A stretch of DNA of 44,036 bases from Sulfurovum sp. (lineage in GTDB: Bacteria; Campylobacterota; Campylobacteria; Campylobacterales; Sulfurovaceae). A program made the translations under genes and the position numbers. The notes under the pieces were generated by a model. It saw nothing but the letters and a program-made list of their open reading frames with translations, ran no database searches and was not told where the DNA came from. Positions 9,543-44,036 of this stretch are shown here, one piece after another. How positions within the stretch are numbered: position 1 is the first letter of the stretch; each line of letters begins with the position of its first letter. The DNA lies in NCBI RefSeq assembly GCF_015493435.1, contig NZ_WGDD01000022.1, positions 1-44,036 of the forward strand. The letters are read 5' to 3'.

Positions 9543-9608
9543 ACTTTTTCTCCATGAATATTTTGTTGTGTTATAATAGCAAAAAGAGTTGAAATTAAGC
9601 ATCTATGC

Positions 9609-9614
9609 TATAAT
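9609..9614 (+). promoter_or_regulatory. Extended -10 box upstream of uvrB
   Basis: TGCTATAAT, a perfect extended -10. Transcription from here would give uvrB a leader of nearly 190 bases that contains a 28-codon open frame (9638-9724) and a hairpin (9752-9770). Confidence 0.5.
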
Positions 9615-9751
9615 TTAAAAAAGAGGCGAAGAGTTCTATGCCCAGTCAACATCAAATATTATCTTCTCTGCTTCAAGAGAAACTTGACAGCCTTATGATC
9701 AGTTTATTGTTTAGTTCGATATAATCACTCCAAAAGAATACTATGGCAGCC

Positions 9752-9808: not shown

Positions 9809-11782
9809 ATGCCAGACTTTACTGTGAACAGTCCCTACAAACCTGCCGGTGATCAGCCGACTGCCATTGAGACACTTTCAACTTCTATTGAAGCAGGGAA
9901 CAAGTATCAGACACTGCTGGGAGTGACAGGTTCAGGGAAAACCTATACCATGGCAAAAGTCATAGAAAAGACAAAAAAGCCTACGCTTATTATGACACAC
10001 AACAAGACGCTGGCAGCGCAGCTCTACTCCGAGTTTAAAAGTTTTTTTCCCAACAATCATGTAGAATATTTCATCTCATACTACGACTACTACCAGCCCG
10101 AAGCCTACCTTCCGAGACAGGATCTTTTTATAGAGAAGGATTCTTCCGTCAACGAGGAACTCGAGAGGCTTCGGTTAAGTACCACCGCTTCACTGCTGAG
10201 CCATGATGATGTCATAGTCATCGCTTCGGTCTCTGCCAATTACGGGCTTGGTTCACCGGAAGACTACAAAACCATTGTACAGAAACTGACTGTGGGTGAA
10301 GAATACAACCAGAAAGAACTGCTGCTTAAATTTGTCGATATGGGATACAAGCGCAATGATGAATTCTTCGATATCGGCAATTTTCGTGTCAGTGGCGAAG
10401 TTGTGGACATTTATCCTGCCTACTCGGACGAATTTGCCATACGCATCGAGTTTTTCGGAGATGAGGTGGAAGCAATCTACGAATTTAACTCCCTGACAGG
10501 GGAGAAGAACAAGGACCTCAAAGAAGTCACCGTCTACTCTGCCAACCAGTTTATCGTCTCCAAAGAGAAACTGGCACGTGCCGTCAATACCATAGAAGAA
10601 GAACTCGGAGAACGGCTTGCCTACTTTCAGAGGGAAGACCGGATGATAGAATACAACCGGCTTAAACAGCGTACCGAGTTTGATCTTGAAATGATAGAAG
10701 CCACAGGAATGTGCAAGGGAATAGAGAATTATTCACGTCACCTGACAGGCAAAAAACCCGGTGAAACTCCCTACTCCATGATGGACTATTTTGAAGCTAT
10801 GCATGATGACTACCTGGTGATCGTCGATGAATCACATGTTTCTCTCTCTCAGTTTCGGGGTATGTATGCCGGTGACAGAAGCCGGAAAGAAGTACTGGTA
10901 GACCATGGGTTCAGACTTCCCTCGGCACTTGACAACCGTCCTTTGATGTTTGACGAATACATTAACAAGGCACCCCACTTTCTTTTTGTCTCCGCCACAC
11001 CGAACGCATTGGAGCTGGAACTCTCTTCTGTCGTGGCAGAACAGGTTGTACGACCTACCGGACTGCTTGACCCACTGATAGAAGTGGTAGATTCCACCTA
11101 TCAGGTGGAAGACCTTCATGACCGAATGAAACCGGTGATAGAACGGGGCGAACGGGTGCTTGTCACTGTGTTGACAAAAAAAATGGCAGAAGAGTTGACA
11201 CATTACTACAATGACCTTGGCTTGAGAGTACGTTATATGCACTCCGACCTTGACGCCATAGAGCGAAACCAGGTCATCCGTTCTTTGCGTTTGGGAGAAT
11301 TTGATATTCTTGTCGGTATCAACCTGCTGCGTGAAGGACTTGACCTGCCCGAAGTCAGTCTCGTTGCCATACTCGATGCAGACAAGGAAGGATTTCTGCG
11401 TTCAAAAACATCGCTTATCCAAACCGCAGGGCGCGCAGCAAGAAATACCAACGGACACGTGCTCATGTATGCCAGAAAAATAACCGATTCCATGAAAGCA
11501 ACCATTGAAGTCACACAAAAACGGCGTGAAAAGCAGATCGCTTACAACAAAGAACACGGTATTACACCCAAAACCACGATCCGTGAACTCGATACCAATC
11601 TCAAAGTCGAAGATGCAGGTGAACTCTACAACAAACGCAGCAAACTGGACAAAATGCCCAAAGCCGAACGACAACAGCTTGTCAAGGAACTTAAAGCGAA
11701 GATGCTTGCAGCGGCAAAGAACCTGGAGTTTGAAGAGGCAGCACGACTGCGCGATGAGATAGCAAAGGTCAAAAAACTGTAA
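9809..11782 (+). CDS. uvrB: Excinuclease ABC subunit B
   Basis: The DNA-damage verification helicase of nucleotide excision repair, acting with UvrA and UvrC in the cytoplasm. 657 residues, the usual length. It shows N-terminal [15 protein letters not shown], Walker [11 protein letters not shown], the beta-hairpin region [12 protein letters not shown], the DESH Walker B (VIVDESHVS), SATPNALE, the C-terminal helicase motif QTAGRAARN, and the UVR domain [13 protein letters not shown] at the C terminus. An ATG two codons upstream (9803) abuts the AAGG, so the ATG at 9809 with 6-base spacing is preferred. It is a stand-alone gene followed by a palindrome. Confidence 0.97.
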
Positions 11783-11828
11783 TTTTACGGGATACGATAA
11801 AAACCATACACACAAAATTCATATTCAT

Positions 11829-11854
11829 GGTGTTGTCGCGGGACAATACCCTAC
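11829..11854. repeat. Imperfect GGTGTTGTC palindrome
   Basis: GGTGTTGTC-gcg-GGACAATACC followed by CTAC, in the gap between uvrB and ppk. A member of the dispersed palindrome family with one mismatch in the arms. Confidence 0.55.
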
Positions 11855-11903
11855 AGGTACCCCCTATAGGATATGATGATTTCCCACCCTGCAAAAAATT
11901 CGC

Positions 11904-11909
11904 TATAAT
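11904..11909 (+). promoter_or_regulatory. -10 box of ppk
   Basis: TATAAT in CGCTATAATACGC, about 34 bases before the ppk ATG. Confidence 0.55.
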
Positions 11910-11942
11910 ACGCAAAAAATATACATTATACAGGCGAATTAC

Positions 11943-26148: not shown

Positions 26149-26652
26149 TTAATGTCCCAAGAGCTTCTTTTTTACAAAAGGGTCATGCAGATTTTTCCCT
26201 TGAAGCATTAAAAGTTTCATTTCATCATAAGATATAAGACCCTTACTTTTCTTTTCATACGCAGCAAATCCATAACCCATAGGGTCATGTGCAATACGCG
26301 TATACCATGCTTTTTTGACATCTATCCAGTGATGTGTATCAAGTGTTTTGGTGACGATCTTTGCAATGACAGGCTTATGATTCTGCAGCCAGAGCACCAC
26401 ACACCCGATATCATCAAAGAAATAGGTATCACCCCCTTGGGTAATAATCTGTGCCTCATATGCCGTTGCTTCAATATTCATATTACATTCGGAACACTGA
26501 TACTCCTTGGGCTTGATCTTAATAATCTTATGTGCACTGTTGCCTTTATAGACATATTTTGCCCCTTGATCATTACCAAAAGAGAGAAGCAGTATCACCA
26601 AAATGGCAATCACCACCGCAACTGTCAATATATTCATCACTATTTTTTTCAT
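26149..26652 (-). CDS. Membrane-anchored NosL-like protein
   Basis: 167 residues from the second of two close ATGs (26652; GGGG 7 bases before it). One N-terminal hydrophobic helix at about 8-25 with no lipobox, so it is anchored with the rest in the periplasm. The NosL-type domain shows YQCSECNMNI (Cys53, Cys56, Met58), FFDDIGCVVLWL (Cys84) and DPMGYGFAAYE, matching the canonical NosL at 33391 block for block. NosL proteins bind Cu(I) and deliver it to NosD/NosZ. Here the gene is last in the ABC-transporter cluster and overlaps its upstream neighbour by 4 bases, so it may serve that transporter instead. Confidence 0.75.
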   Translation of the reverse strand: MKKIVMNILTVAVVIAILVILLLSFGNDQGAKYVYKGNSAHKIIKIKPKEYQCSECNMNIEATAYEAQIITQGGDTYFFDDIGCVVLWLQNHKPVIAKIVTKTLDTHHWIDVKKAWYTRIAHDPMGYGFAAYEKKSKGLISYDEMKLLMLQGKNLHDPFVKKKLLGH

Positions 26653-27617
26653 AACCATACCCCGTTTTTAAAATAATAAACAGCCACATACCCGCTGCAT
26701 AGAAAAACAAACATGCTTAGCAATACTATTGCAATTCGCTTTAAAGTTTGTGAAACAGTGTGAAAAAAAACATTCATGACCGCATAATCAATCGCAAAGA
26801 ATGTTCCCAAAAGCAGCAATCCCCAAACAGCATAACCGACATAATGGTAATGATCCTGCAACATACAGAAAGGACATTTATGGGTAGGGAGTTCATAAAT
26901 ATAGGTACCGAAGAAATAGACTACCGCATAATATCCGACCACAACGAACAATATACTTGAAGCCACACTGACAAGGGAAAGGTTGGAAAACAGACTCAAA
27001 ACGATCAATGCAAAAAGCAGATAAAAGAGCATCAGAAGTTTAGGAATATCCAACCCGAACGGCAGGCTGTTTGCACCACCTGTTTGACCGAAGATCACAG
27101 AACAGCAACTGACAGGATTTGTGGTTTCAATATGGGTAAAGTAGAGTATGTCCAAAAGAAATTCTGCACTGAGCAGAACAAAGATAAAGAGGAAAAACCA
27201 TGATTTCAGTTTGAGGTAGGGATAACGCTTTGCTTTCAGGTCTATACTGTTGATACTGAGCCACAGTCCGCTCAGAAAGAGGATCACTATTTTCAATGCC
27301 AGCAAAGGATTGCCGTAGGCATTTGCCTTGATCACACCGGCACCACACATCGCACCGGGGACAAGATCGGAAAGAGCATCGATGGTATAGACAAAATAGG
27401 GCAGCAATATGATCTTGAGCACGATGCCAAAAAAGATAATGGTCATAACCAGATAGGAGCGGTTTTCAAGAGTGAACTGTTCTGTGGTAAAAGCGTCAAA
27501 ATTCCACTTTTTAACCAACCCGACAGTCACGAGAAATGCAACAAAAAGAAGAAGATAAAGCACTGTCTCTGAAAGCAGATAAACGATGACTTCATTGTTT
27601 AAGAGTATCTCATTCAC
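26649..27617 (-). CDS. Polytopic membrane protein with periplasmic cysteine pairs
   Basis: 322 residues, about eight membrane helices. I do not recognise a characterised family. Cysteines cluster outside the helices: Cys91 (GAMCGAG), Cys171-172 (VSCCSV) and CPFC at 248-251 flanked by His247, His256 and His258 (HKCPFCMLQDHYHY). The arrangement recalls VKOR/DsbD-like thiol or metal-relay proteins, but it is not a clear match. It overlaps the ABC ATPase gene by 8 bases upstream and the NosL-like gene by 4 bases downstream, so it is very likely part of one complex or pathway with them. Confidence 0.7.
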   Translation of the reverse strand: MNEILLNNEVIVYLLSETVLYLLLFVAFLVTVGLVKKWNFDAFTTEQFTLENRSYLVMTIIFFGIVLKIILLPYFVYTIDALSDLVPGAMCGAGVIKANAYGNPLLALKIVILFLSGLWLSINSIDLKAKRYPYLKLKSWFFLFIFVLLSAEFLLDILYFTHIETTNPVSCCSVIFGQTGGANSLPFGLDIPKLLMLFYLLFALIVLSLFSNLSLVSVASSILFVVVGYYAVVYFFGTYIYELPTHKCPFCMLQDHYHYVGYAVWGLLLLGTFFAIDYAVMNVFFHTVSQTLKRIAIVLLSMFVFLCSGYVAVYYFKNGVWL

Positions 27618-28296
27618 TGTCTTTTGCCTCTACAATAGTACCATCTTCCATATGTACCACTTTGCGCACAAAAGAAAGTCCTTCAAACAAAGGGTCATGT
27701 GTGGCAACGATAACCGTTTTACCCATGTTATGCAATGATTGAAGTATCTCTATGAATTTCAGGGAATTGGCTCTGTCGAGATTGGCAGTAGGCTCATCAC
27801 AAAGGATGAGTTCAGGTTCATGAATCAATGCTCTGGCGATTGCACAACGCTGTTTTTCACCACCGGAGAGCGCTTTAACTTCCTGTGATGCTTTGTGTGA
27901 AATTGCTGATAACTCCATACTTTTATCCGCTAATACTTTGATCGTCTGCATATCAAATCCGGAATTGATCAGCGGGACAATAACATTCTCTTCTACACTG
28001 AGTGACTCTAACAGATTAAAGTGCTGAAAGATCACGCCAATGGTTTTTGCACGATACGTTGAAGCATGCAGGTCAGGCAGTTTTGAGATCAACTCTCCAT
28101 TTACCATAATCTTTCCGTTGCTGGGTTTATCGAGTGCGGCAATCAGCGAAAGAAGTGTCGACTTGCCACTCCCGCTTACCCCGCTTAAAACAACTGTTTC
28201 TCCATGGGAAACACTTAGGTTGATCGATTTAAGTGCTTCAAATGCTTGAGGGGTTCCCTCGTTATAGATTTTATTGATATTTTTAAGAACTACCAT
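27610..28296 (-). CDS. ABC transporter ATP-binding protein (MacB/LolD type)
   Basis: 228 residues from the ATG at 28296 (AAGGG upstream). Walker A GVSGSGKSTL, Q-loop FQHFNLL, signature ALSGGEKQRCAIARAL, Walker B LILCDEPTANLD, switch His in VATHDP. This is the LolD/MacB/FtsE subfamily, whose partners are FtsX-type permeases that work by mechanotransmission rather than moving substrate through the membrane. Partner permease is the gene at 28388. The upstream extension to 28362 lacks a ribosome-binding site. Confidence 0.9.
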   Translation of the reverse strand: MVVLKNINKIYNEGTPQAFEALKSINLSVSHGETVVLSGVSGSGKSTLLSLIAALDKPSNGKIMVNGELISKLPDLHASTYRAKTIGVIFQHFNLLESLSVEENVIVPLINSGFDMQTIKVLADKSMELSAISHKASQEVKALSGGEKQRCAIARALIHEPELILCDEPTANLDRANSLKFIEILQSLHNMGKTVIVATHDPLFEGLSFVRKVVHMEDGTIVEAKDSE

Positions 28297-28387
28297 AATC
28301 CATCCCTTGTAACCATTGGTATTGAGAAACACAACACCCTGCATTTTAACAATACAAAGCAATACCTTCCCTTGCTGCTCACTACTA

Positions 28388-29566
28388 TCACAGCATCGCC
28401 TCCTTGGGTGGTGTCACGGCAACTTTCCAAGCCGGGATCAATACCGCTGCCAAAAACGGAACTGCATAAAAAAGAAAGATCGACCCCAGTATCCCAAACT
28501 TAACAACCGGCACAAAGGTAACATGATTGGCAAGGTTGGAGCCTCCAAGGAAAATATGGCTCAGCAATGGTGCATTCAATACAAACACATACAGGTATGC
28601 CAATACAACACCTATGATAAAACTTATTATAACAATCACAAGATTTTCATAAAATTTCAATTTCAGAATATCTTTAATACTCCAGCCTACCGCACGAAGG
28701 ATCCCTATCTCTTTGCGCTCTGTAGAGTAAACCATGGAATACCGCTGATACAATATAAGCATAAAAGTGACAATGGTTACGAGATAAAGGATTAAAAAGA
28801 GTCCTCCTTTGTAATTATAGAGGTTCTCGTAGGCTTTTTTCACTTCTCTTTTTTCTATGACACGAACATCATAGAAGAGAAGATGCAGTTTGGTAATAAT
28901 ATTGTCCCATTCGGCATCATTGGGCACATTAAAGGTAATATCGGTCACCTCACCTTCTCCCAAACCAAAAATCTCTCTGGCCAGTTCTATAGGCATAATG
29001 ATCATATCATTGTCAATAAGGTTAGCTTGTTTTGGAAGGGTTTGATAAATGTTTACTTTTTTAAACGTACCTTTGGGGGTTTTAAATGTGAAATCATTTT
29101 TAAAATAATGTGCCTCAAGAAATTTCCTGACCCCCTCACCTACCAACATACTGTCTTTGGAAAAAAAGCGTTTCAGGTCTACATCTTTTAAAAGTCTTTG
29201 CAATGCCTGATTGTTCTGTTCATCAAAAAAATCGATACCAACCACCAAAAAAGCGTTTTCTCTTGGAGCAAAAAAATACCTTCCGTAAATTCTGGGTGCT
29301 ACGTGTGTCACACCATTGATACCCAGAATTTGATCAACCCATGCTACGGGTGTATTAGCAGGTTTTCCTGCCTGTATACGGGTCACCACAAAATCTCCCT
29401 GCTTCTGCAGTGCGGACAAAAGAGAATATTGTAAAGACGAAGAAAGGAATAGCACTGCACTTAAAAGAAAAATGATGATTACCGAGATCAGTACTGCTCC
29501 GATATGTTTACTCTTCTGCTTAAACAGCAAAAGGGTCAAGAAATGTAAAAAAGCATTATTTCTCAT
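28388..29566 (-). CDS. FtsX/MacB-family ABC permease
   Basis: 392 residues. One N-terminal helix (about 20-45), a large periplasmic domain of about 220 residues, then three helices with the FtsX pattern ERKEIGILRAVGWSIKDILKLKFYENLVI near the second helix. Typical of MacB/LolC permeases that pass force to periplasmic partners. Periplasmic partners here would be the NosL-like proteins encoded on either side (inference). A TTG at 29572 is an alternative start. It overlaps the 84-residue gene by 11 bases. Confidence 0.85.
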   Translation of the reverse strand: MRNNAFLHFLTLLLFKQKSKHIGAVLISVIIIFLLSAVLFLSSSLQYSLLSALQKQGDFVVTRIQAGKPANTPVAWVDQILGINGVTHVAPRIYGRYFFAPRENAFLVVGIDFFDEQNNQALQRLLKDVDLKRFFSKDSMLVGEGVRKFLEAHYFKNDFTFKTPKGTFKKVNIYQTLPKQANLIDNDMIIMPIELAREIFGLGEGEVTDITFNVPNDAEWDNIITKLHLLFYDVRVIEKREVKKAYENLYNYKGGLFLILYLVTIVTFMLILYQRYSMVYSTERKEIGILRAVGWSIKDILKLKFYENLVIVIISFIIGVVLAYLYVFVLNAPLLSHIFLGGSNLANHVTFVPVVKFGILGSIFLFYAVPFLAAVLIPAWKVAVTPPKEAML

Positions 29567-29810
29567 AGACAAAATCCATTCTGTTCAATGCCTGCATCTG
29601 GGGATAGGCAGGGTTTGAAGCAGTTTCATAAAAAAGTATCCTCGGTTCGTAATAGGATACACTTAATGCAGGAGAAGAAAAATTTGTCACAGCACTAATG
29701 CCCTGCAATGCCTCTTGCGGTGTTTTCCTGTCATACTGCAGATAATGCCCTGCTACCATACCTATTAACAAAAACAATATTGTCACCAATACAAAAAAAG
29801 GCTTGATCAT
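29556..29810 (-). CDS. Small membrane-anchored protein of unknown function
   Basis: 84 residues: an N-terminal helix (IKPFFVLVTILFLLIGMVAG) followed by a short periplasmic tail with YYEPRILFYETASNPAYPQM and no cysteine. No family recognised. Its ATG directly follows the TAG of the upstream NosL-like gene, and its end overlaps the permease gene, so it is translated as part of this operon. Confidence 0.6.
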   Translation of the reverse strand: MIKPFFVLVTILFLLIGMVAGHYLQYDRKTPQEALQGISAVTNFSSPALSVSYYEPRILFYETASNPAYPQMQALNRMDFVYEK

Positions 29811-30485
29811 CTATTGCACTATTCCATCTAATGCCATGAGCATTTTACCGGTAATTTCACCAAATCTTACAATCTTTTTACCATGATGTTCAGCCATGAA
29901 TGTCTGGGCACTTTTTTTGTCCTTAAAGGCTATCAGTTCATGTCCCATCGGCCCAAATACATCTGCATCCAACACATAAAATGCTTCTTTTGCAGGAATT
30001 TCATCTATAGTGTAGTAATCACTAACGACCATTTCGGAAATATGACTGCGGTCATAGGGAAAATCTCCATCAAAGATATAATACTTCATCATATCTTTTA
30101 CACCATCAAAATAGTACACTTTCCCATCATGTTTCATCATTGCAGCCCATTTTGGATATTTGGAAACGAACATACCGCATACTGGACATTTTGCATCATC
30201 AGGAACTGCTAAATGCTGACTGTTCTCTTTGATGCTTCCCTGCTGTAGATAATAGGCTACTGCTTCCAGTTTGTCAGGAGAGAGATGTTTACACGATCCG
30301 GAAGAAAGGATCTCTTTTTCAATTGTTTCAATATTACCTGCAGCATGGGGAAGCGTACTTTGCTCACACATCACTTTGACAATACGTTCCCCTTTTTGTG
30401 CAAGTTTCATTGCTTTGACAGCATTACTTTCATCTGCAAAGAGAGATATTAGACTCCATAATGCTATAAAAATAATTTTTACCAT
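29811..30485 (-). CDS. Exported NosL-domain protein with N-terminal two-cysteine module
   Basis: 224 residues from the second of two ATGs (30485; AAGGG 8 bases upstream). Signal peptide about 1-17. An N-terminal module (about 28-84) has AQKGERIVKVMC and SCKHLSPDKLEAVAYYL with Cys40 and Cys65. A NosL-type domain follows with CPVCGM (100-105), VYYFDGVKDMMKYY and FGPMGHELIAFK. The module resembles a class I cytochrome c without its CxxCH heme motif and recurs at the C terminus of the protein encoded at 30629. Presumably a periplasmic copper-binding protein; the substrate is inferred from NosL only. Confidence 0.72.
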   Translation of the reverse strand: MVKIIFIALWSLISLFADESNAVKAMKLAQKGERIVKVMCEQSTLPHAAGNIETIEKEILSSGSCKHLSPDKLEAVAYYLQQGSIKENSQHLAVPDDAKCPVCGMFVSKYPKWAAMMKHDGKVYYFDGVKDMMKYYIFDGDFPYDRSHISEMVVSDYYTIDEIPAKEAFYVLDADVFGPMGHELIAFKDKKSAQTFMAEHHGKKIVRFGEITGKMLMALDGIVQ

Positions 30486-30501
30486 CTTCATTTCCCTTGT
30501 A

Positions 30502-30525
30502 GGGTGTTGTCTTATGACAACACCA
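30502..30525. repeat. GGTGTTGTC palindrome copy near the NosL cluster
   Basis: GGTGTTGTC-ttat-GACAACACC, perfect 9-base stem preceded by GTAGG as in the copies at 9752 and 14567. In the gap between the two exported NosL-domain genes. Confidence 0.6.
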
Positions 30526-30539
30526 TCAATCTATAATTT

Positions 30540-30615
30540 TTGTATCTCTCAGTATTGTAAGGGTACAGGTATGAAAATTCGGTGCAAGCGAAGCACTAAC
30601 TGCTGAGTCATACAA
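30540..30615. repeat. 76-base imperfect inverted repeat with inner hairpin
   Basis: TTGTATCTCTCAG (30540-30552) pairs with CTGAGTCATACAA (30603-30615) at 11 of 13 positions. GTGC/GCAC at 30582-30596 forms an inner hairpin. Lies directly beside the palindrome at 30502. Could be a mobile-element remnant or an RNA structure. Confidence 0.4.
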
Positions 30616-30628
30616 CACTATGCACACA

Positions 30629-31366
30629 TTATCTGTTTTTCAGATACAATCCAATAGCCTGTAATTGTTTGCCATTCAACCCTTTACACAGCTTATTACT
30701 TACAATAAATGCTTTTGCTTCAGCAGTAGAAACAAACTTCTTATCGGTTTTCTGGCACATTTTACCATACATCATTTTCCCTTTTTGAGCCATCATTGCC
30801 TGTTTTTTGGCAATCATCTTACTATCTTTGGCAAACTCTGCTTTGGCTGCTTTAAGTGCTCCGGTAAAGTCTGTCACTTTACCACCGTTTACTTTGGCAA
30901 AAGCTTCTGCATCTGCTTTTTTTGCAAACGCATATTTACTGACTGCTGACATTGTCCCTTTTTTACGGCTTCCCACTACATATGTTGCTTTCTCTACCGG
31001 GATGAACTTCAGTGTTGTTACATCTACCACTTTCATCTCTGTAAGCTTACTGCCTTTTTTTAGATCTTCTGCCAAACAGTGAATAGAACAATACTGCTTC
31101 ACTTTACCATTCACAGTAGCTGCATGATTTGTTTTGTAGAACATTGGAAGTGTCATACCACATTCAGGACAGAATGCTTTAGCTTTACCTTCCTGTAAAA
31201 GAGTGGCCTTTCCTTTTGGTACCGCCTGAAACATTTTAATCATTTTTTTAGGCTGACCTGCCTGTTTCATTGCAGCTCCACATTTACCTGCCGCGCATTT
31301 CATCTCAGCATGCGAAAAGCTTATTATAGTCCCCAATACCAATACAGCCAATAACAGTTTTTTCAT
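30629..31366 (-). CDS. Exported NosL-domain protein with N-terminal CxxxxC and C-terminal two-cysteine module
   Basis: 245 residues. Signal peptide about 1-20 (ending SHA), then MKCAAGKCG (Cys24, Cys29) right at the mature N terminus, a likely soft-metal site. The NosL-type domain has FCPECGM (Cys66, Cys69, Met71) and QYCSIHC (Cys93, Cys97). A Lys/Met-rich linker follows, then a C-terminal module AQKGKMMYGKMC...LCKGLNGKQLQAIGLYL that matches the N-terminal module of the next protein. Probably periplasmic copper binding. A perfect -10 and an 11-base tandem repeat lie upstream, so this is the first gene of the second cluster. Confidence 0.72.
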   Translation of the reverse strand: MKKLLLAVLVLGTIISFSHAEMKCAAGKCGAAMKQAGQPKKMIKMFQAVPKGKATLLQEGKAKAFCPECGMTLPMFYKTNHAATVNGKVKQYCSIHCLAEDLKKGSKLTEMKVVDVTTLKFIPVEKATYVVGSRKKGTMSAVSKYAFAKKADAEAFAKVNGGKVTDFTGALKAAKAEFAKDSKMIAKKQAMMAQKGKMMYGKMCQKTDKKFVSTAEAKAFIVSNKLCKGLNGKQLQAIGLYLKNR

Positions 31367-31405: not shown

Positions 31406-31427
31406 TAGTGTTAAATTAATGTTAATA
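31406..31427 (-). promoter_or_regulatory. 11-base tandem repeat, likely activator site
   Basis: On the minus strand TATTAACATTA then ATTTAACACTA, 8 of 11 identical, ending 6 bases upstream of the -10. Period and position suit an OmpR/PhoB-type response regulator. The 13-mer ATTTAACACTAAT recurs upstream of nosZ. Confidence 0.45.
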
Positions 31428-31943
31428 CAGTCTATGGATCTCTTCGAGCAGATTGTCAACAGTAATATCATCACCGTACGAGCGGAGAAAGTCATTCAGG
31501 TACGTTTCGGAAGCTTCCATCCCTCCTTCTTTCTCTACTTCTACCAGTTTTTTATAGAGCGGGTCAAGTACATCGGTAACATGCTTCGATATTTTTTTCC
31601 GCGACGCTTTGTATCCGGTCGGATTTCCCTCTTCGTCCCTCAAAATATCAAAATCGGTAAAAACCCAGTAGTATCTGCCGTCTTTGGCAAGATTTTTAAC
31701 CGCTGCAATAAAATTGTGCCCATTCTGGATGCGGTCCCAAAGAATCTTAAAAAGGATTTTGGGCATATCGGGATGACGCACAATACTGTGCGGCTGCCCG
31801 ATCAGCTCCTCTTTGGTATAACGGGATATTTCTGCAAAGTAGTCATTGACATAGGTGATAATACCTTTCAGGTCGGTATCACTCTCTATATAAACATTGT
31901 TTTTAAGCTCTATCTCTTCATCAATGGGTTCTGGTCGTTTCAT
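31422..31943 (-). CDS. PAS-domain protein (Aer-like)
   Basis: 173 residues, soluble. A PAS domain fills residues about 12-115: GIITYVNDYFAEISRYTKEELIGQPHSIVRHPDMP, then WDRIQNGHNFIAAVKNLAKDGRYYWVFTDF, the pattern of the redox/oxygen-sensing PAS of Aer-type taxis proteins. The rest is helical with no output domain, no HAMP and no methyl-accepting domain. It may pass a redox signal to a separate partner. GGAG 7 bases before the ATG at 31943. It sits between the nos operon and the second NosL cluster; a sensor role for N2O or redox state is inference. Confidence 0.82.
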   Translation of the reverse strand: MKRPEPIDEEIELKNNVYIESDTDLKGIITYVNDYFAEISRYTKEELIGQPHSIVRHPDMPKILFKILWDRIQNGHNFIAAVKNLAKDGRYYWVFTDFDILRDEEGNPTGYKASRKKISKHVTDVLDPLYKKLVEVEKEGGMEASETYLNDFLRSYGDDITVDNLLEEIHRLY

Positions 31944-32070: not shown

Positions 32071-32553
32071 TTACATATCCAGGTAGCGTATCAGTCCTTT
32101 GCTTAACTTCGTAAAGGGAAGGATTTTGGTTCCCCCATTCTTCATCATAAAAAGTTTTGCATTGGTTTCTGATTCGAACGGGATCAGGTCGTCGCCATGA
32201 GGACCGGTTATTCTGCTCCCGAAGACATATACAGCTTTGGTCGCATCAATTCTTCTGCCCGTATTGAAATCCTGGACATAGAGTTTATCGATACCTGCAC
32301 TCAAAAGGCCATGTTTTTTAAAATACGGCTCATGCTGGGCTACCTGCATCATTGATTTTACAGAAACAAACTGTATTTTCTTTTTATTTTTGAGTTCTGC
32401 TTCACACAGCCATTTGTCATACTTTTTCAACGGCAGAATATAGACAGGATCTGTTGCATTCTGATCAAGCAGTATGATCTTCCCGGAAAACGGCGCCTGG
32501 GCGAAGAGGATCCCTATTCCCAGGATCATTCCCAACACGATTTTTTTTATCAT
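32071..32553 (-). CDS. NosL-like protein lacking the CxxC metal motif
   Basis: 160 residues from the ATG at 32553 (AAGGAGAG upstream). Signal peptide about 1-18. The C-terminal half (RIDATKAVYVFGSRITGPHGDDLIPFESETNAKLFMMKNGGTKI) matches the second half of the NosL domain in the proteins at 29811 and 30629. The N-terminal CxxCxM region is replaced by VYILPLKKYDKWLCEAEL with a single Cys50. It is the last gene of the nos operon, 10 bases after nosY. It may hold a partner NosL or bind a different ligand. Confidence 0.7.
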   Translation of the reverse strand: MIKKIVLGMILGIGILFAQAPFSGKIILLDQNATDPVYILPLKKYDKWLCEAELKNKKKIQFVSVKSMMQVAQHEPYFKKHGLLSAGIDKLYVQDFNTGRRIDATKAVYVFGSRITGPHGDDLIPFESETNAKLFMMKNGGTKILPFTKLSKGLIRYLDM

Positions 32554-32563
32554 CTGTCTCTCC

Positions 32564-33391
32564 TTACAAAAGATCTTTTTTTCTAAATGCAATATATCCA
32601 AAATAGGATAACAGTGCACCAATGACTATCGGATAGAAGATCGCATAAATGATCAGCCAGGTCGAACCGAGTGTATCGAGAATATAATAGGCAACCGGTC
32701 CGATGACCGTCAACTCGGGATCGAACAGCGAAATGGCCCCGATACGGAAGACTTCTATGGGGTTGAGCATGGCCAGAAATACGATCAATCCGTCATTCAT
32801 TCTGTTCTGCAGCATCAATCCTATCAGTCCGATATCGATAAACGCCAGCATGACGATCCATACAACGAACGAGCCGCCCAGGGCAATATCGGTCGATTTG
32901 ACAAGGGTAGAGAGGAAAAAGGCAAGTCCAAGAAAAACAAAACTCAGTGAAAACAGAAACGCCGAGTAGAGAAAAACCATTTTCCATGGAAGTGCTCCGC
33001 CTTTTAAAAGACCGAAAACAACACCCAGCAGCAACGCAAGAAAAACCGGCATGAAAACAGTCAGGAAGCGGCCGAGCATTTTGCCCCAGTAATAGTCTTT
33101 CAGCGATACCGGAAAGGAGAGCATATATTCAAGGACATTGCTTTCTCTGTCTCCGGAAATCGATTTGACCGTAGTAATGAGAATGAAAATAGGCAGGATG
33201 ATAATGGTGACTTGTATAAAGATCAGCAGCATACGGCTCAAGCCGGTAAACCCCATGACAACAGAGTCCGAAACACCGCTGATAAAGAAAAGCGCCATCA
33301 AGCCGCCAAAAACGACAGAATAGACATAAAACCATTTCGAACGCAATGATTCTTTGACATCCAGATATGCAACAAGAAAAAGATTTTTCAT
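32564..33391 (-). CDS. nosY: NosY, ABC permease for NosZ copper-site maturation
   Basis: 275 residues with six membrane helices of the ABC-2 type (LFLVAYLDVKESLRSKWFYVYSVVFGG start, GDRESNVLEYMLSFPVSLKDYYWGK after helix 2). With NosF and NosD it forms the NosDFY complex that readies the copper sites of NosZ. It shares a base with the end of nosL, so the order is nosF-nosL-nosY here. Confidence 0.9.
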   Translation of the reverse strand: MKNLFLVAYLDVKESLRSKWFYVYSVVFGGLMALFFISGVSDSVVMGFTGLSRMLLIFIQVTIIILPIFILITTVKSISGDRESNVLEYMLSFPVSLKDYYWGKMLGRFLTVFMPVFLALLLGVVFGLLKGGALPWKMVFLYSAFLFSLSFVFLGLAFFLSTLVKSTDIALGGSFVVWIVMLAFIDIGLIGLMLQNRMNDGLIVFLAMLNPIEVFRIGAISLFDPELTVIGPVAYYILDTLGSTWLIIYAIFYPIVIGALLSYFGYIAFRKKDLL

Positions 33392-33864
33392 CAGTACGCC
33401 TTTACTTTCTTGGAATTAGACTGCTCGATCTTTTCGATCTGCTTGACAATACTCTGATAGTCAAGCACCTTTGAGCCTGGGGGAAGGGTTTCTTTGCTGT
33501 AGGCGGCAAAACCGTATGCCATCGGTGTGATTGCACCTGAAACATACAAGGCTTTGCGTGCATTGATCCACTTTCCTGTTTTGGCATCAGTGACCCAAAT
33601 GTTCGCTTCTTTTTTCCAGGGTATTTTTTCTTCTTCCAGCCAGAGTACGGCACAGCCGATATCATCGAATTTATAGGCTTTGCCTGTCTTTGGCGCAATG
33701 ATCTGTACGGCAAATTTACGTTCGCTTATAGCCATTTTACAGCGTTCGCACATATCTCGGTCCCAGTGCATTTGCACGGCACCGCCTACCGTTTTTTTCT
33801 CACATCCGGAAAAGCCCAGCACCATTAGAAAACCCAGCAGCAGCAAAAAACTAAATTTTTTCAT
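33391..33864 (-). CDS. nosL: NosL, copper-binding lipoprotein
   Basis: 157 residues. Lipobox LGFSGC with lipidated Cys21, so anchored in a membrane facing the periplasm. DMCERCKM supplies Cys39, Cys42 and Met44; FDDIGC and ITPMAYGFAAYS are the other conserved blocks. NosL delivers Cu(I) to NosDFY/NosZ. It overlaps nosF by 14 bases. In Wolinella the order is nosF-Y-L, so nosL has a different place here. Confidence 0.92.
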   Translation of the reverse strand: MKKFSFLLLLGFLMVLGFSGCEKKTVGGAVQMHWDRDMCERCKMAISERKFAVQIIAPKTGKAYKFDDIGCAVLWLEEEKIPWKKEANIWVTDAKTGKWINARKALYVSGAITPMAYGFAAYSKETLPPGSKVLDYQSIVKQIEKIEQSNSKKVKAY

Positions 33865-36562: not shown

Positions 36563-37379
36563 TTTTGCTTCCTTTCTTTTTTTCATATACTTCAGCATAG
36601 GTTGCGCGCGGAAGTACTTGCAATACTTTCGTCGGACACAGTTCCACACAGGCACCGCATCCGACACAGGCTTCCCGAATTTCCGGGAAAAGCCCTCCGT
36701 CTTTCGAGATCATTCCTATCGCATGGCTCGGATCAGGCTCGAACGGACACAGATCGGCACAGATACTGCAGTTTTTGCCTTCCTGCTTACCCAGCTTTTC
36801 CAGAAGCTCTTTCTGGAGTTTGACTTTTTCCGTGTCGTTGGCATAAATTTCTACTTTTCTGTTCCTTCGTTCCTGCGCCGTAATGACTTTGGTATGATCG
36901 TAGATCCTGCCGATCATCTCTTCTGTCACCTTCTTGTTGGTCAGCGCAAGACAGGCACTTTCATTCACGACAATGGCCATACCCATATGCACTTTTTCTA
37001 TGACATTGGATTCATGGTCAAGCGCACCGGTCGGACAGGCCAAGACACAGGGAAAGGCTTCGCATAGATAGCATCCTCTTTCCAGCGGTGCAATGTAGGC
37101 TGTTCCCACACCTGCTTCACCCTCTATGTCTTCCAGTTTAATCGCATCATACGGACAGACCTGCAGACACTGTCCGCATTTGATACACATCGTAAGATAC
37201 CTGTCTTCTTCTACCGCTCCGGGCGGACGCAGTCTCTCTTTATGCGGTTTGAAATCTTTGGCAGCCCATATTCCGCCTGCTGCTGCAATGCCAAGTACAC
37301 CAAGTCCCGCAGCCTGCTTCATAAACTGTCGTCTTTTTTTCTCTTCTTTTGAAGTCATGTTTTGCACTTTTTTTTCCAT
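36555..37379 (-). CDS. nosG: NosG, NapG-like periplasmic ferredoxin
   Basis: 274 residues. Twin-arginine signal KRRQFMKQAAGLG, then four [4Fe-4S] motifs: CIKCGQCLQVCP, CYLCEAFPCVLACP, CSICADLCPF and CVGCGACVELCP. Exported folded and associated with NosH on the periplasmic face. Shares one base with the end of nosD. Confidence 0.93.
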   Translation of the reverse strand: MEKKVQNMTSKEEKKRRQFMKQAAGLGVLGIAAAGGIWAAKDFKPHKERLRPPGAVEEDRYLTMCIKCGQCLQVCPYDAIKLEDIEGEAGVGTAYIAPLERGCYLCEAFPCVLACPTGALDHESNVIEKVHMGMAIVVNESACLALTNKKVTEEMIGRIYDHTKVITAQERRNRKVEIYANDTEKVKLQKELLEKLGKQEGKNCSICADLCPFEPDPSHAIGMISKDGGLFPEIREACVGCGACVELCPTKVLQVLPRATYAEVYEKKKGSKNA

Positions 37380-38602
37380 TACACTTGTCCTTCATACATT
37401 TTGGGATGCTTATCGCTCAAAAGCAGTACCGGCTCTGAAAACGGAGCCAGTTTTGCCAGAAAATTCAATATGGAGATCACAGGCGAACCGTAAAAAAACT
37501 TGACGTTTGGATTGAGAAGCCAGATTTTGTCTGCATAGGCATAATAGTTGTACGGTCTGTCACCTATACCGTCACCGTTCCGGTCAAATCCTTCATAATC
37601 ATCCCAGTAATTTCCGTCAAACAGATTTTCGGTAACTTTACTGTTGTAGGAATCGTTCGTAACATTCTCAATATTGCCCTTGAAAGTATTGTCCAGAAAT
37701 TTGTTATGCAGGCTCAAAGAGTGAAAATGGATCCCTTCACTGTTGTAAATGATCCGGTTTCCCTCTATAATATTGACCGTATCGGGTTCATAGGGCGACC
37801 TGTCTATGAACAGACCTCTTGCGCAATAGATGATCGTATTGTCTTTCAGGACAAAATTGCTTGCATCCTTCATGCCTATACCCAGTCCTGTCGTACCCAA
37901 AGAATTTTCGATAATATTTCCTGTCGCTACCGTATCTTGCGAATACATAAAAAAAATACCTACAGAATTGTGTTTATATACATTATTTTTGACGATGTTT
38001 TTGCCGGTATACATAAAATGGAGCGAGTAGCGTCCATATTCACCCCGGTTCTTTTCTATGAGGTTTCCATGCGAATACCATACCACAAAATCACGTGACT
38101 TGTAAAGATGGTTCTTGCTTAAATGGTTGTCATTGCTGTACCATAGACGCACACCGTCCCCTCTGAGTCCAAGTGCAAAAGGCTTGGACTCAATATAGTT
38201 CCCGTTGATCTCGGAGCGTGTTACCTGGGCCATATCAATGCCGAAAAGGCAGTCAACTATCTTGCAGTTCTCGACCGTGCACTGCTGCACTTTGTTCATA
38301 GAAATACCTGCATCTACCCGTTCATGTTCTGCACCGCTGTGCCTGATGGTCAGGTTCTTGAGCGTTACGCGCGAACTGCCAATCGTAACTACCGTACCTT
38401 TGCCGTCACCTTCAATTATCGCGTTCTGGTCTTTCCCGTCAATGATCAAAGGTTTGTTGATAACGATATTACCATGATAGATCCCGGCCGGAAGTTCCAG
38501 CTTTGATCCCGGTTTTGCCTTGTCAATAGCCTCCTGAAGTGCATTATTCGCCCATAACAGATGCGACAGTACCATAAGAGAGACTATAAACTTGTATATC
38601 AT
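37379..38602 (-). CDS. nosD: NosD, periplasmic copper-site maturation protein
   Basis: 407 residues. Signal peptide about 1-18 (ending LWA). A right-handed beta helix of parallel repeats (ENCKIVDCLFGIDM, NNVYKHNSVGIFFMYS, ENSLGTTGLGIGMKDASNF) and the C-terminal DGNYWDDYEGFDRNGDGIGD are NosD/CASH hallmarks. Works with NosFY and NosL to load copper into NosZ. One base separates it from nosB. An unusual extra C-terminal stretch (KIWLLNPNVKFFYGSPV...) runs towards a hydrophobic end, as in other epsilon NosD. Confidence 0.93.
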   Translation of the reverse strand: MIYKFIVSLMVLSHLLWANNALQEAIDKAKPGSKLELPAGIYHGNIVINKPLIIDGKDQNAIIEGDGKGTVVTIGSSRVTLKNLTIRHSGAEHERVDAGISMNKVQQCTVENCKIVDCLFGIDMAQVTRSEINGNYIESKPFALGLRGDGVRLWYSNDNHLSKNHLYKSRDFVVWYSHGNLIEKNRGEYGRYSLHFMYTGKNIVKNNVYKHNSVGIFFMYSQDTVATGNIIENSLGTTGLGIGMKDASNFVLKDNTIIYCARGLFIDRSPYEPDTVNIIEGNRIIYNSEGIHFHSLSLHNKFLDNTFKGNIENVTNDSYNSKVTENLFDGNYWDDYEGFDRNGDGIGDRPYNYYAYADKIWLLNPNVKFFYGSPVISILNFLAKLAPFSEPVLLLSDKHPKMYEGQV

Positions 38603-39589: not shown

Positions 39590-42193
39590 CTAGAAGAGAT
39601 TCGCATTCTCGTCGATCCACTTGAGATATTCGATAATATCTTTTGTCTGTTGCTCTGTCATACCCTGGTTAGGCATACGGAGATTGAAGTAGTTGATCAT
39701 AGATTTGATGTATGGGTTGCTATACATTGTTTCTGGATGCATGATCCATCCGGTAACCCACTTCTCGGCATTTTCATGTCTTTGAAGTACACCTGTCAAA
39801 TCCGGTCCGGAACTTACTTTCCCGATAACGTGACATCCGTTACATCCGCCTTCAAGATACGCTGCTTCACCGCGTTTTGCAGCAGGGCTCATAGGTTTCG
39901 CTACTTTCTTGACCAGAAGGTCTTTCGCACGAATACCGACGTCGGCTGTTTTAACCATGTACTGCCAGATCATATTTTCGAACAGGATCGCTTTGTTCAG
40001 ATTGCCGGCTTTCACCGCTTCATCCGCTTTTTTCTTCTGCTCTGCGATCTTTCCGTACTGGTCTAACGCATCTTCCACCAAGGCTTTGATTGTCGGATAC
40101 TTCTCGTAATGGTTCTCTTTGAGGAACTTCACAACACTCTGGATGACTTTGTCTGTTGCATTGTTTACCGCAACAGTCTGATCATACTCTTTTTTAAGCT
40201 GTGCAGGACTCATTTTTGCCATTTTAAGCTTTTTAGCCGCTGTATATTTTTTATTTGGATCTTTCACCAAAAGGTAACCCATCATTTCCAAGTGAAGCGC
40301 TGAACAGAATTCCGTACAGTAGTAAGGGAATACACCTTCACGGTCTGCTTTGAATGTAACTGCAACTGTTTTACCCGGTTCGAGTGATGTGTGTACATTG
40401 TACTGATCCACCGTAAATCCGTGTGTTTCATCCTCCGCTCTTTCGAGGTTTGTCAGATAGAAAGTAACCGTATCGCCTTTGTTTACTGTAACATGCTCAG
40501 GGTTGATATGTGATCTGACCACGGTTCCGTAAACATATACATGGTTGCCTTTTCTGACGATTTTTTCCTGACCGGCAAGTGTTTTACCTACATGCACTTT
40601 ACCGGTAAAGGCATTGGTACCCATTTTGTAACGTACTTCAGGGTGCAGTTTGCTTGCTCTGATCGCTACTGCCTGGTGCGGTTCTCCAAGAGGTACCGGC
40701 ATATCGTAAAGCAATTGCATCTTTTTACCGCGGATATCGATCAGCTGGTGGTTCTGCGGATGCAATGGCCCGATTTCGTTAAATCTGTCGATCGCGAGTT
40801 TGTTCAGTGCAATGATATACTCACCCTGAGGATCTTCTGTTTTACCTTCCATTCCGCAAAGGTGGCCGATGTTGTAGTTTACGTTCTGTCTGTCTTCTAC
40901 TTTACATGTCAGGTAATCCCATTTGACAACCTGGGAGTCAACATAGAGAGAAGTATAGATCTCGCCCTCTGTTTTCCACTTTGGACCAAACTGGTTATGT
41001 AACGGCCCGAGACCCAGCTCTGCCTGGCAATGCATGGCTTTTTTCATATCGAGGATAGGGATACCGTACGGATCTTTTCCTGCATAGTCTTTGTTTTTGA
41101 TCAAATCCATGATCTTCGCAAAATCATACACAGTCGCATGGGTGTCAAGTTTACCGCAGACTACAATATATTTACCGTCCGGAGTGACATCTACACCGTG
41201 CGGTGATTTAGGCTCGGGGACCAGGAAGAGAGCATTGTTTTTAACCGCCACATCTATAGGAATGACACGTGCCCCGTTGATGATTTTTACATTTTTGTCA
41301 TCTTTGGCCAACTCTGCCAGTTTTTTCCAGTTGTAGACATGCAAAAAGTCCGTATCGTTTCTTGAACATCCCGCTTCAAACGGAGGAAGTCCTTTTTCGA
41401 TACCGCCGGTATACATTTCGGAGTTAAATGAGTTGGTGAAACCCCAACCGTAACTGGCTTCTTTACCGGCATCGGAGAGATCCTGCATGTAAGGAGGCAT
41501 TTCAATTGTAAATGATTTGTCTGGCTGGATCCTACCCTTGTCGTGGTTGAAACTCCAGACAGTCACACCGCCGCGGTATGTCTCTTTATACTCATCCATC
41601 GGGTGGTAATTGTTGTCGAGCGGTGCACCGTACTGACATGCTTCCAGAATATACTTGGAATCCGGCGTAAAGAATGCACCACCATGATCGGATTTGAATA
41701 CAGGGTTTACTACGATCTGCTTGGTGACAAAGTCGTTCAAGTCAATCACGGCAAGTCGCGGATTGGCTTTGTCATTAATGATCAGCCATTTACCGTCATA
41801 TTTACCGTTAGTCTCGGAAAGTGCCGGGTGGTGGGTATCTCCCCATGTGATCTTCTTCCCTCTGATATTACCTTCCGCCAATATTTTTTTGGTATCATCG
41901 TCATAACCCCATCCCTGCCAAGGCTCCGGGGTAAAGACACCGATATATTTGAGTATTCTCATGGACGGTACGCCATATACCATCATTTGTCCGGACTGTC
42001 CTCCCGAACTGAATACGATATATTTGTCACGTCCGCCGCTCGGCGTATAGGTTTTCGCTGCTGCGAGCAGATCTGCCTGTGTCAAACCTCTTTCTTTCAT
42101 TACTTTATCCAAGGCTCCTCCACCGAAAAGTGTTGTCACACTCAGTGCAGAACCTAGAACAAGTGATGTAAATTTGCTTAACTTGTAGCTCAT
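39590..42193 (-). CDS. nosZ: NosZ, cytochrome c nitrous oxide reductase
   Basis: 867 residues. Reduces N2O to N2 in the periplasm. A Sec-type signal (about 1-24, no twin Arg) marks the clade II/epsilon form. The beta-propeller carries CuZ ligands such as DTHHPALSE, DHGGAFF and KSPHGVDV. The cupredoxin domain has CuA ligands in PYYCTEFCSALHLEMMG (C-x3-C-x3-H-x2-M) and His in ETHGFTV. A C-terminal cytochrome c domain adds GGCNGCHVIG with distal Met-rich LRMPNQGM, the feature of cNosZ. AGGAGG lies 5 bases before the ATG. Own promoter with an FNR-type site upstream. Confidence 0.98.
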   Translation of the reverse strand: MSYKLSKFTSLVLGSALSVTTLFGGGALDKVMKERGLTQADLLAAAKTYTPSGGRDKYIVFSSGGQSGQMMVYGVPSMRILKYIGVFTPEPWQGWGYDDDTKKILAEGNIRGKKITWGDTHHPALSETNGKYDGKWLIINDKANPRLAVIDLNDFVTKQIVVNPVFKSDHGGAFFTPDSKYILEACQYGAPLDNNYHPMDEYKETYRGGVTVWSFNHDKGRIQPDKSFTIEMPPYMQDLSDAGKEASYGWGFTNSFNSEMYTGGIEKGLPPFEAGCSRNDTDFLHVYNWKKLAELAKDDKNVKIINGARVIPIDVAVKNNALFLVPEPKSPHGVDVTPDGKYIVVCGKLDTHATVYDFAKIMDLIKNKDYAGKDPYGIPILDMKKAMHCQAELGLGPLHNQFGPKWKTEGEIYTSLYVDSQVVKWDYLTCKVEDRQNVNYNIGHLCGMEGKTEDPQGEYIIALNKLAIDRFNEIGPLHPQNHQLIDIRGKKMQLLYDMPVPLGEPHQAVAIRASKLHPEVRYKMGTNAFTGKVHVGKTLAGQEKIVRKGNHVYVYGTVVRSHINPEHVTVNKGDTVTFYLTNLERAEDETHGFTVDQYNVHTSLEPGKTVAVTFKADREGVFPYYCTEFCSALHLEMMGYLLVKDPNKKYTAAKKLKMAKMSPAQLKKEYDQTVAVNNATDKVIQSVVKFLKENHYEKYPTIKALVEDALDQYGKIAEQKKKADEAVKAGNLNKAILFENMIWQYMVKTADVGIRAKDLLVKKVAKPMSPAAKRGEAAYLEGGCNGCHVIGKVSSGPDLTGVLQRHENAEKWVTGWIMHPETMYSNPYIKSMINYFNLRMPNQGMTEQQTKDIIEYLKWIDENANLF

Positions 42194-42380: not shown

Positions 42381-44036
42381 TTAAAATTTATAGCTCAGGT
42401 TGGTGTAGACATAGCGTCCGGGTTCGTTCATAAGCATCACTTCACCGCCGCCGGAAATGAGGGTCAGATCTTCATAGGTATTTGAAACAGCATAGGTTTT
42501 ACCGAAGAGGTTGTCTACCCCTACCGTCACTTCAAAGTGATCTGCAAATGTTTTGCTCCCTTTCAGGTTGACAACCGCATAGCCGGGCAAATACTGTTCA
42601 CCGTTGTCTGCATCATAGTCTTTCCATGCACCTGCAGCAACGACTTCGGCACGAAGCAGATAGTCATCCGGCTCTTCAAAGTTGATCCCCGCGACCAGTT
42701 TCATCGGCGGGATCTCAGGCATATTGGTCCCGGTCTGTCCGCTTAGAGGATGATCTTTCTCACCTCGTTGGTAAGAAAGAGCGGCATCCGTGTACATGGT
42801 CTCGGTCAAAATATACGTTCCGCTTACTTCAAAACCATACAGTTTCGCATCCATATTTTCAAAACGGTTGGTCATTTTGTCTGCATTGTAGAAGATAAAG
42901 TCGCCCAGTTGACTGTAAAAGAATTTTGCCTTGAGTGTCGCATCTTCAAACTGTGTTTCCCCGCCAATGTCAAATTCCGTATTGGTCACAAGGTCGAGTG
43001 TAGGGGTGCCCAGTACTTTACCCGCTTTTTGGAAATAGAGCTCGCGTCCGTCAGGAACCCGGGAAGAACGGCCTGCCCCGCCATAGAGTTTTGTTTTTTC
43101 ATCCACATGATAGGTTAACAGTACATTGCCGTTCAAGGCATTGTAGTCATTGCTCTGCAGCGTACCCAGACCGGGCTTGACCGATGTATCGTCATATCTC
43201 AGGCCAAGATCGACTTCCCATTTGTCCAAATGTATCTTGTCTTTGGCAAAAAAAGCAATATTTTCAGTATCGACATCCGGAATACTGATACCTTTATATC
43301 TGTCATTTTTCCCATAATAAGCACCATTCCAGTTGCGCAGACTGTAGTCTATGCCTACTGTTAGCTCATGGTTGTCAAGGTCGAACCTGTTTTTGATCCT
43401 GGCCCCCTGTGTATCGGTTGTCAGCCAGTTTTTCATCAGCATCATACGGGAAGCTTTTCTGTACATATTGCTCATAGGGTGGTCCACATCTGATTTGTAC
43501 AGATGAATATCAAGTTCTTTGGAATAGCTTCCCAGGTCTTTGAGGATATATTTGGCATTGTAGATATTGGAATTATCATACAGGGCATCCATCGGTGTTG
43601 TCGGGTAGAGTATATCGTCACTTCTGTTACCCGTATAGCTCAGTTTCAGCTGCTGTGTATCTGTAATATCCCAAAACATTTTTGCCAGAACGGTCTTTTT
43701 GGTAAAAGCATCCATGTCACGGTACTGCGGCAGAAGTGCCTGTCCTTTCAGCTTTTTGTCGTGTACCGGATTTCCATTCAGGTTCTGGGCGATATAGTTA
43801 TCCATCTGCTGCGCAAAATCGTTGCCGTCGCCATCTTTATACTGTCCGCCGCGTTCTCCCGAAGCACTCAGAAGAAATCTGATGCGTTCTGTACCGCCGC
43901 TGATCATCGCAGAAGCTTTTTTGTAATCCCAGCTTCCAAAGTTCAGATTGGCATCACCATGCAGCTCTTTGGTGGGCTTCAGTGTTTCAACATCGACGTT
44001 GGCACTCAGTGCACCGAAATTCTCCACATCATACGG
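42381..44036 (-). CDS. TonB-dependent outer-membrane receptor (partial, N terminus missing)
   Basis: At least 551 residues; the signal, TonB box and first part of the plug are beyond the right edge. Visible are the end of the plug (PYDVENFGALSANVDVETLKP) and beta-barrel strands with alternating aromatic pattern, KTKLYGGAGRSSRVPDGREL, and the closing strand YVYTNLSYKF with the terminal Phe of outer-membrane proteins. TonB-dependent receptors import metal chelates or free metal. Its place before nosZ recalls NosA/OprC copper receptors of denitrifiers, but the substrate is not shown by sequence. The gene ends 187 bases before nosZ with a hairpin between. Confidence 0.85.
   Translation of the reverse strand, partial: PYDVENFGALSANVDVETLKPTKELHGDANLNFGSWDYKKASAMISGGTERIRFLLSASGERGGQYKDGDGNDFAQQMDNYIAQNLNGNPVHDKKLKGQALLPQYRDMDAFTKKTVLAKMFWDITDTQQLKLSYTGNRSDDILYPTTPMDALYDNSNIYNAKYILKDLGSYSKELDIHLYKSDVDHPMSNMYRKASRMMLMKNWLTTDTQGARIKNRFDLDNHELTVGIDYSLRNWNGAYYGKNDRYKGISIPDVDTENIAFFAKDKIHLDKWEVDLGLRYDDTSVKPGLGTLQSNDYNALNGNVLLTYHVDEKTKLYGGAGRSSRVPDGRELYFQKAGKVLGTPTLDLVTNTEFDIGGETQFEDATLKAKFFYSQLGDFIFYNADKMTNRFENMDAKLYGFEVSGTYILTETMYTDAALSYQRGEKDHPLSGQTGTNMPEIPPMKLVAGINFEEPDDYLLRAEVVAAGAWKDYDADNGEQYLPGYAVVNLKGSKTFADHFEVTVGVDNLFGKTYAVSNTYEDLTLISGGGEVMLMNEPGRYVYTNLSYKF

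Follow-up and report, generated by a model that had tools for sequence, protein, structure and literature searches.

The window analysed here, that is, the whole stretch of 44,036 nucleotides of contig NZ_WGDD01000022.1 from Sulfurovum sp. (NCBI RefSeq assembly GCF_015493435.1; genome size 2.16 Mb), carries a cassette of seven minus-strand genes immediately 3' of a complete clade II nos cluster, as determined by domain and open reading frame (ORF) calls. The cassette combines three NosL-domain proteins (N1, N2 and N3) with an ATP-binding cassette (ABC) transporter, a small anchored protein (s84) and an eight-helix membrane protein (TM8). Its genes are listed below with the expect values (E) of their domain matches:

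30629..31366, minus strand: N1, exported NosL-domain protein (Pfam NosL E 2.5e-14; conserved N1 family)
29811..30491, minus strand: N2, exported NosL-domain protein (Pfam NosL E 7.7e-28; model matches NosL structures)
29556..29810, minus strand: s84, small single-helix anchored protein (ORF abuts N2; homologues 5' of the permease in many loci)
28388..29566, minus strand: FtsX/MacB/Lol-class ABC permease (Pfam FtsX E 3e-12; ORF open from TTG 29572)
27610..28296, minus strand: ABC ATPase of the LolD/FtsE/MacB type (ABC_tran E 1.8e-33; ORF open from TTG 28362)
26649..27617, minus strand: TM8, eight-helix membrane protein (53 homologues with invariant cysteines; structural model available)
26149..26652, minus strand: N3, membrane-anchored NosL paralogue (related to the canonical NosL of the window; ORF open from 26658)

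All seven genes named in the original prediction, which had been made from the sequence alone, were recovered by these calls. The tight spacing it described holds for four of the six junctions, which overlap or abut: N2 and s84 abut, s84 and the permease overlap by 11 or 17 bases, the ATPase and TM8 by 8, and TM8 and N3 by 4 or 10. It does not hold for N1 and N2, which are 137 bp apart, nor for the permease and the ATPase, separated by approximately 91 bp when ATG 28296, likely from the MVVLKN beginning of the protein, is taken as the ATPase start. Just 5' of N2, inside the N1-N2 gap, lies an inverted repeat, GGTGTTGTCATAAGACAACACC (30499-30523), a possible processing or attenuation site.

With regard to the NosL-domain proteins, N1 and N2 are recognized by Pfam, and N3 stays under the cut-off (E 0.0015), yet shares 43% identity over 88 residues with the canonical NosL of the window (E 3e-20), and is clearly a paralogue of that local protein. 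In addition, the N2 model, with a predicted local distance difference test (pLDDT) score of 90, matches NosL 7og7 (E 5.9e-9) and NosDFYL complexes, with template modelling scores of 0.75-0.80 by target length. Together with the shared motif, these results place all three proteins in the NosL family (PF05573), as had been predicted. In the sequence alignment, CXXCXM is present in N1 (CPECGM), N2 (CPVCGM) and N3 (CSECNM) of the window, each with a second conserved methionine; the Cys and Met of this motif have been proposed as Cu(I) ligands in clade II NosL (PMC6530538). N1 also contains YCSxHC and, at its C-terminus, a two-cysteine module, which recurs as a helical module preceding the NosL domain at the N-terminus of N2, and between both NosL domains of the fused N1-N2 form found in many species. 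In the N2 family alignment, residues C42, C67, C102, C105, M107, M182 and H202 are invariant, and the N3 family retains CXXCXM or DXXCXM outside the cassettes of mcc operons.

It was also observed that mature N1 starts with MKCAAGKCG (window 31277-31366), resembling the KCGxxKCG of modified copper-chelating peptides, with an NCBIfam match at E 0.018, below the cut-off, and that an MKCAxGKCG start is conserved in many Sulfurovaceae N1 proteins. A modified peptide of this kind was considered and rejected, as no MNIO enzyme was found in the window genome.

The transporter genes conform to the FtsX/MacB assignment made initially. The permease has an FtsX C-terminal domain (PF02687), falls just short of the MacB_PCD threshold (PF12704; E 2e-5, 25.4 bits versus a cut-off of 27), and matches LolC, MacB and YtrF in the PDB; the best NCBIfam models for the ATPase are FtsE and LolD. 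By Pfam, the permease belongs to the FtsX class and not to the ABC-2/NosY type, and no NosD match was found among the seven cassette proteins, the nosD gene of the window belonging to the nos cluster. Assignment to LolCDE or MacAB-TolC is not supported either, since the LolCE equivalog score is 49.6 bits against a cut-off of 362, the MacB score is likewise far below its cut-off, and no MacA adaptor or TolC was found in any cassette locus read. The small protein s84 shows a conserved C-terminal FVYE segment. At another locus (L029, G165), a second FtsX permease and ATPase directly follow N3 of an mcc cassette, which suggests a tandem duplication of the ABC part.

The AlphaFold2 model of TM8 (pLDDT 86) confirms what had been noticed in the sequence, namely eight helices and the motifs CC and HKCPFC. 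Five cysteines are invariant in the 53 homologues, in the motifs GAMC, CC and HxCPxC, the last in the window form HKCPFC, and the model positions them on one side of the membrane, with C91 (GAMC) in loop 2-3, C171-C172 in loop 4-5 and C248-C251 in loop 6-7; from loop charges, this side is predicted to face the periplasm. Sequence searches of Pfam, NCBIfam and the PDB returned no relative of TM8, and no match was found on plasmids. Foldseek searches with the model gave no match at E < 0.001, and VIA-align retrieved half-length generic helical bundles only, so that a new fold is neither shown nor excluded. A relationship to FetA was rejected, as the probability of TM8 against the FetA profile is near 0, and PF10080 (DUF2318/FtrD-like), expected for a FetA-type system, is absent from the window genome. 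We regard TM8 as the centrepiece of the cassette and as a membrane protein not described before.

To assess distribution, 200 Campylobacterota genomes were surveyed, and all genome counts given below refer to this set. TM8 was matched in 65 genomes, of which one, with a weak fragment, was set aside, leaving 64 cassette genomes. The permease, ATPase and TM8 genes are contiguous in 109 of the 113 homologous loci with enough flank, with every named host in Campylobacterota; NosL-type genes lie 5' of the permease in 82/113 loci, and N3 or NosL lies 3' of TM8 in 83/127. Separate conservation in unrelated contexts, which would have spoken against a functional unit, was not seen, and a gene order conserved over more than 100 loci is not a product of chance. 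A split set occurs in two Sulfurovaceae-family genomes (G177, G196), where the fused NosL and the permease lie apart from the ATPase and TM8. Beyond the phylum, one contig scan was performed, and all named hosts among the best 80 of 351 TM8 relatives are Campylobacterota, the closest named match within these 80 being the metagenome-assembled genome 'Epsilonproteobacteria bacterium (ex Lamellibrachia satsuma)', with a TM8 identity of 95%.

Co-inheritance extends to the NosL component. NosL was found in 78 genomes, including 64/64 with the cassette, and a strong N2-type NosL (>80 bits) is present in all 64 cassette genomes and in 2 of the 136 others (G044, G199). In Arcobacteraceae, NosL is not adjacent to the cassette; these genomes encode elsewhere an N2-type NosL that stands alone, has an N-terminus rich in His and Met, and shares 50-52% identity with the Wolinella protein. 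As every cassette genome has NosL, the cassette and NosL are therefore co-inherited even when unlinked, and the expectation that the genes co-occur as a unit was borne out. The stand-alone form was noted at L210 (7364-7879) and at L209, where two further genes, for a metal-binding-like YCGCC protein and for a protein rich in Met and His, lie approximately 4 kb away (L209 coordinates 7049-7564 and 11193-11911). Moreover, at L207 (G044, 7972-9673), an N1-N2 NosL pair adjoins sox-like genes, its surroundings containing neither a transporter nor TM8, and is a candidate for having a different partner.

The tightest of the cassette's links to possible client enzymes is that to MccA, reportedly a haem-copper sulfite reductase (Hermann et al. 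2015), which the original prediction had not considered. The cassette is present, without exception, in the 30 genomes that have a Wolinella-type MccA, and in every such locus read it lies inside the mcc operon; in a thirty-first genome (G056), the mcc locus is broken by a transposase-like gene. In Wolinella succinogenes, whose MccA is identical to PDB 4rkm/4rkn, and in Campylobacter and Sulfurospirillum-like genomes, the order is mccA, an FKBP gene, mccC, mccD, the CcsBA haem lyase gene and a Sel1 gene, followed by the cassette. The copper ligands of MccA are reportedly Cys399 and Cys495 in the published numbering (Hermann et al. 2015); our ORF numbers these residues Cys411 and Cys507. MccA has been listed among cuproenzymes (PMC7558416). 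A link to any MccA whatever was rejected, since a second MccA type, with approximately 50% identity, has no cassette; its loci (L185, L189 and L191, in G046, G172 and G097, respectively) contain genes for a hexahaem protein, CcsBA and thioredoxin-like proteins, with an SCO1-like gene in L189.

The second link is to the nos cluster, whose place directly before the cassette the original prediction did not stress. In the window, the cluster is arranged on the minus strand in the order nosZ-B-D-G-C1-C2-H-F-L-Y, ending with a NosL paralogue lacking the motif, after which come a PAS-domain gene, the seven cassette genes, acpP and fabF. Five NosL-family genes (the three of the cassette, the canonical one and the motif-less paralogue) are thereby found within 7.7 kb. 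Cassettes adjoin nos genes in the window, in other Sulfurovaceae loci and in loci from several other families (L044, L049, L050, L051, L105 and L158), and 40 of the 51 genomes with NosZ carry the cassette. In the 17 genomes with NosZ and the cassette and without MccA, the two lie within 21 kb of each other in six, from 6 genera and 4 families (binomial 6.6e-7 at approximately 2% chance each, the genomes not being fully independent). Furthermore, cassettes linked to nos turn up in separate parts of the TM8 tree, with at least nine label changes, some labels being uncertain because of contig ends. Altogether, the prediction that presence of the cassette tracks nosZ holds in part, as 11 NosZ genomes lack the cassette and 24 of the 64 cassette genomes lack NosZ; NosZ as sole client was rejected on these grounds. 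In the window itself, NosZ is the most likely client. The remaining features of this neighbourhood are:

39590..42193, minus strand: NosZ, Sec-type clade II nitrous oxide (N2O) reductase (TIGR04246, 864 bits)
37379-38602, minus strand, as the rest of the cluster: nosD of the nos cluster
33391..33864, minus strand: canonical nos-cluster NosL, CERCKM (Pfam NosL E 3.9e-7)
32071..32553, minus strand: NosL-like protein without CXXCXM at the end of the nos cluster (Pfam NosL E 8.6e-16; no CXXC in sequence)
31422..31943, minus strand: PAS-domain protein between the nos cluster and the cassette (Pfam PAS_3 E 2.1e-13)

Homologues of the motif-less NosL paralogue occupy the corresponding position in other nos clusters, so the protein is probably structural rather than copper-binding. 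The PAS gene is kept in nos-linked Sulfurovaceae loci, L121 excepted, and its product is a candidate bystander or sensor. Upstream of nosZ, a TonB-dependent receptor fragment (window 42381-44027) has as top equivalog TIGR01778 (TonB-dependent copper receptor), with a score far below the cut-off, and possibly represents an outer-membrane copper entry route. In the Wolinella genome (G167, C1:870653-873755), nosZ comes out as two pieces lying apart, which would fit an interrupted gene.

NosDFY is now thought to act mechanically on the periplasmic side, so that the contrast originally drawn between the cassette and NosDFY as an exporter is weak. The cassette resembles NosLDFY in that NosL-type Cu(I) chaperones and an ABC transporter are encoded next to a periplasmic copper enzyme (PDB 7osf/7znq, NosDFYL), but it lacks NosD, uses an FtsX/MacB-class permease, has three NosL domains, and adds TM8 and a small anchored protein; in the window, both systems are present side by side. 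The sirA locus of Shewanella, orthologous to mcc, was also compared. It presumably holds a full nosLDFY set without nosZ. In this MccA-type locus, genes SO0476-SO0484 are followed by nosL and nosY (SO0485 and SO0488; PMC5955497), which occupy the place equivalent to that of the cassette. As for the cassette itself, the mcc operon of Wolinella succinogenes contains the same genes, arranged identically as fused N1-N2, small protein, permease, ATPase, TM8 and N3 and placed right behind mccABCD and a CcsBA-type haem lyase gene, and hence the same system, differing in its client, MccA, and in an N3 without CXXCXM. Kern et al. (2011) reportedly describe the Wolinella mcc cluster, and the cassette genes must lie within this published region, which limits their novelty. 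Evidently, the same cassette also corresponds to the five-gene insertion between nosL and nosY in nos clusters of Sulfurospirillum cavolei, consisting of an ABC permease, an ATPase and hypothetical proteins and mentioned in a figure legend without family or function (PMC4794192). Campylobacter jejuni fetMP-fetABCDEF shares with the cassette the permease family, an ATPase and an eight-helix protein whose periplasmic cysteines aid metal handling, FetA, which has CXXC motifs and lies beside the ABC transporter (PMC10783030); FetABCDEF differs in handling iron, in its FetM/FetP partners, two permeases and thioredoxins, and in the sequence of FetA, with no detectable relation to TM8. Finally, MacAB and LolCDE belong to the same permease and ATPase superfamily, but have an adaptor or a lipoprotein chaperone that the cassette lacks.

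Since the cassette stands in for NosLDFY next to one copper enzyme and occurs together with it next to another, we interpret the cassette as copper-site machinery. We consider it likely, though well short of certain, that it would function as a copper-delivery or maturation machine for periplasmic respiratory copper enzymes, similar to NosLDFY and built from different parts. The observations underlying this interpretation are gene content and order, co-inheritance, motif conservation, predicted topology and the linkage to two unrelated copper enzymes; copper, over any other soft metal, we infer from the clients and the NosL motif. In the mechanism proposed, the periplasmic N1 and N2 and the anchored N3 would bind Cu(I) through CXXCXM and the second methionine. 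Through its ATPase, the FtsX/MacB-class transporter would spend ATP on a conformational change in the periplasm, and not on bulk export, and this engine would load or pass Cu(I) to the apo-enzyme. TM8, predicted to expose its five invariant cysteines, one methionine and one histidine on the periplasmic face, may be either a Cu(I) relay bound to the membrane or a thiol partner keeping copper and cysteines reduced. The client would be set by the neighbourhood, being MccA in mcc operons and most likely NosZ in the window. Thus, of the copper machine first predicted to serve NosZ or another cuproenzyme, the accessory NosL and MacB/Lol-class system inherited as a unit stands, but it is not specific for NosZ.

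Several observations weigh against this interpretation. The mcc-linked cassettes form one clade on the TM8 tree, and CXXCXM is degraded in their N3. MccA homologues at approximately 50% identity keep both copper cysteines without a cassette, and NosL is absent in the three genomes tested, which indicates that MccA copper can be loaded in another way; likewise, the 11 NosZ genomes without the cassette indicate that it is not essential for NosZ. In addition, 17 cassette genomes carry neither NosZ nor a Wolinella-type MccA, implying at least one further client, for which NirK was considered and rejected, as no match over the cut-off was found in the genomes surveyed. The association P values also ignore shared ancestry, phylogeny having entered only as tree labels.

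It could also be that the ABC transporter and TM8 act as a thiol/redox relay sending reducing equivalents to the periplasm, where copper would be kept as Cu(I) and the cysteines in MccA, NosZ and NosL in the reduced state, in parallel with what FetABCDEF has been proposed to do in iron uptake. The invariant TM8 cysteines, periplasmic in the predicted topology and including CC and CPxC, would suit such a role, as would the two invariant cysteines in the N2 module, a thioredoxin-like gene following the Wolinella cassette, and the precedent of FetA (PMC10783030). Nevertheless, most cassettes come without a thioredoxin, TM8 is not detectably related to FetA or to any solved thiol-disulfide protein, and the NosL-family partners point to the metal itself, for which reasons we regard this relay as unlikely.

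General copper uptake is more improbable still. The cassette would then move copper from the periplasm to the cytoplasm or membrane for uses including cbb3 oxidase, rather than load a nearby enzyme, which would accommodate the 17 genomes with neither client, the TonB/ExbBD genes upstream in some loci (L042, L023) and the TonB receptor fragment before nosZ in the window, whose TIGR01778 match is well below the cut-off. Linkage to individual copper enzymes, above all within the mcc operon, argues against it, and the FtsX/MacB class is, to our knowledge, not known to import. The similarity of the permease and ATPase to LolCDE, FtsE and MacB might instead suggest a machine of the MacAB or LolCDE type for the export of toxic copper or the release of lipoproteins, in which the NosL proteins would be periplasmic copper buffers, but the cassettes read have neither MacA nor TolC, and the LolCE and MacB scores are so low that we give this explanation very little credence.

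Maturation of clade II NosZ is poorly studied, although the bacteria concerned are N2O sinks. If the copper-delivery interpretation is true, a shared accessory machine would explain the copper supply of both MccA and NosZ, and a different ABC class would be shown to provide a functional counterpart of NosDFY. More broadly, at what we judge to be slightly less than even chances, the cassette may represent a second general copper-loading machine, in which NosL chaperones are coupled to a mechanical ABC transporter of the MacB class and to a new eight-helix cysteine family, which would hand on Cu(I) at the membrane surface, the whole being reused across Campylobacterota for chemically different sites (Cys2-Cu(I)-haem in MccA, and CuZ/CuA in NosZ). 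TM8, in particular, provides a concrete candidate family for membrane Cu(I) handling.

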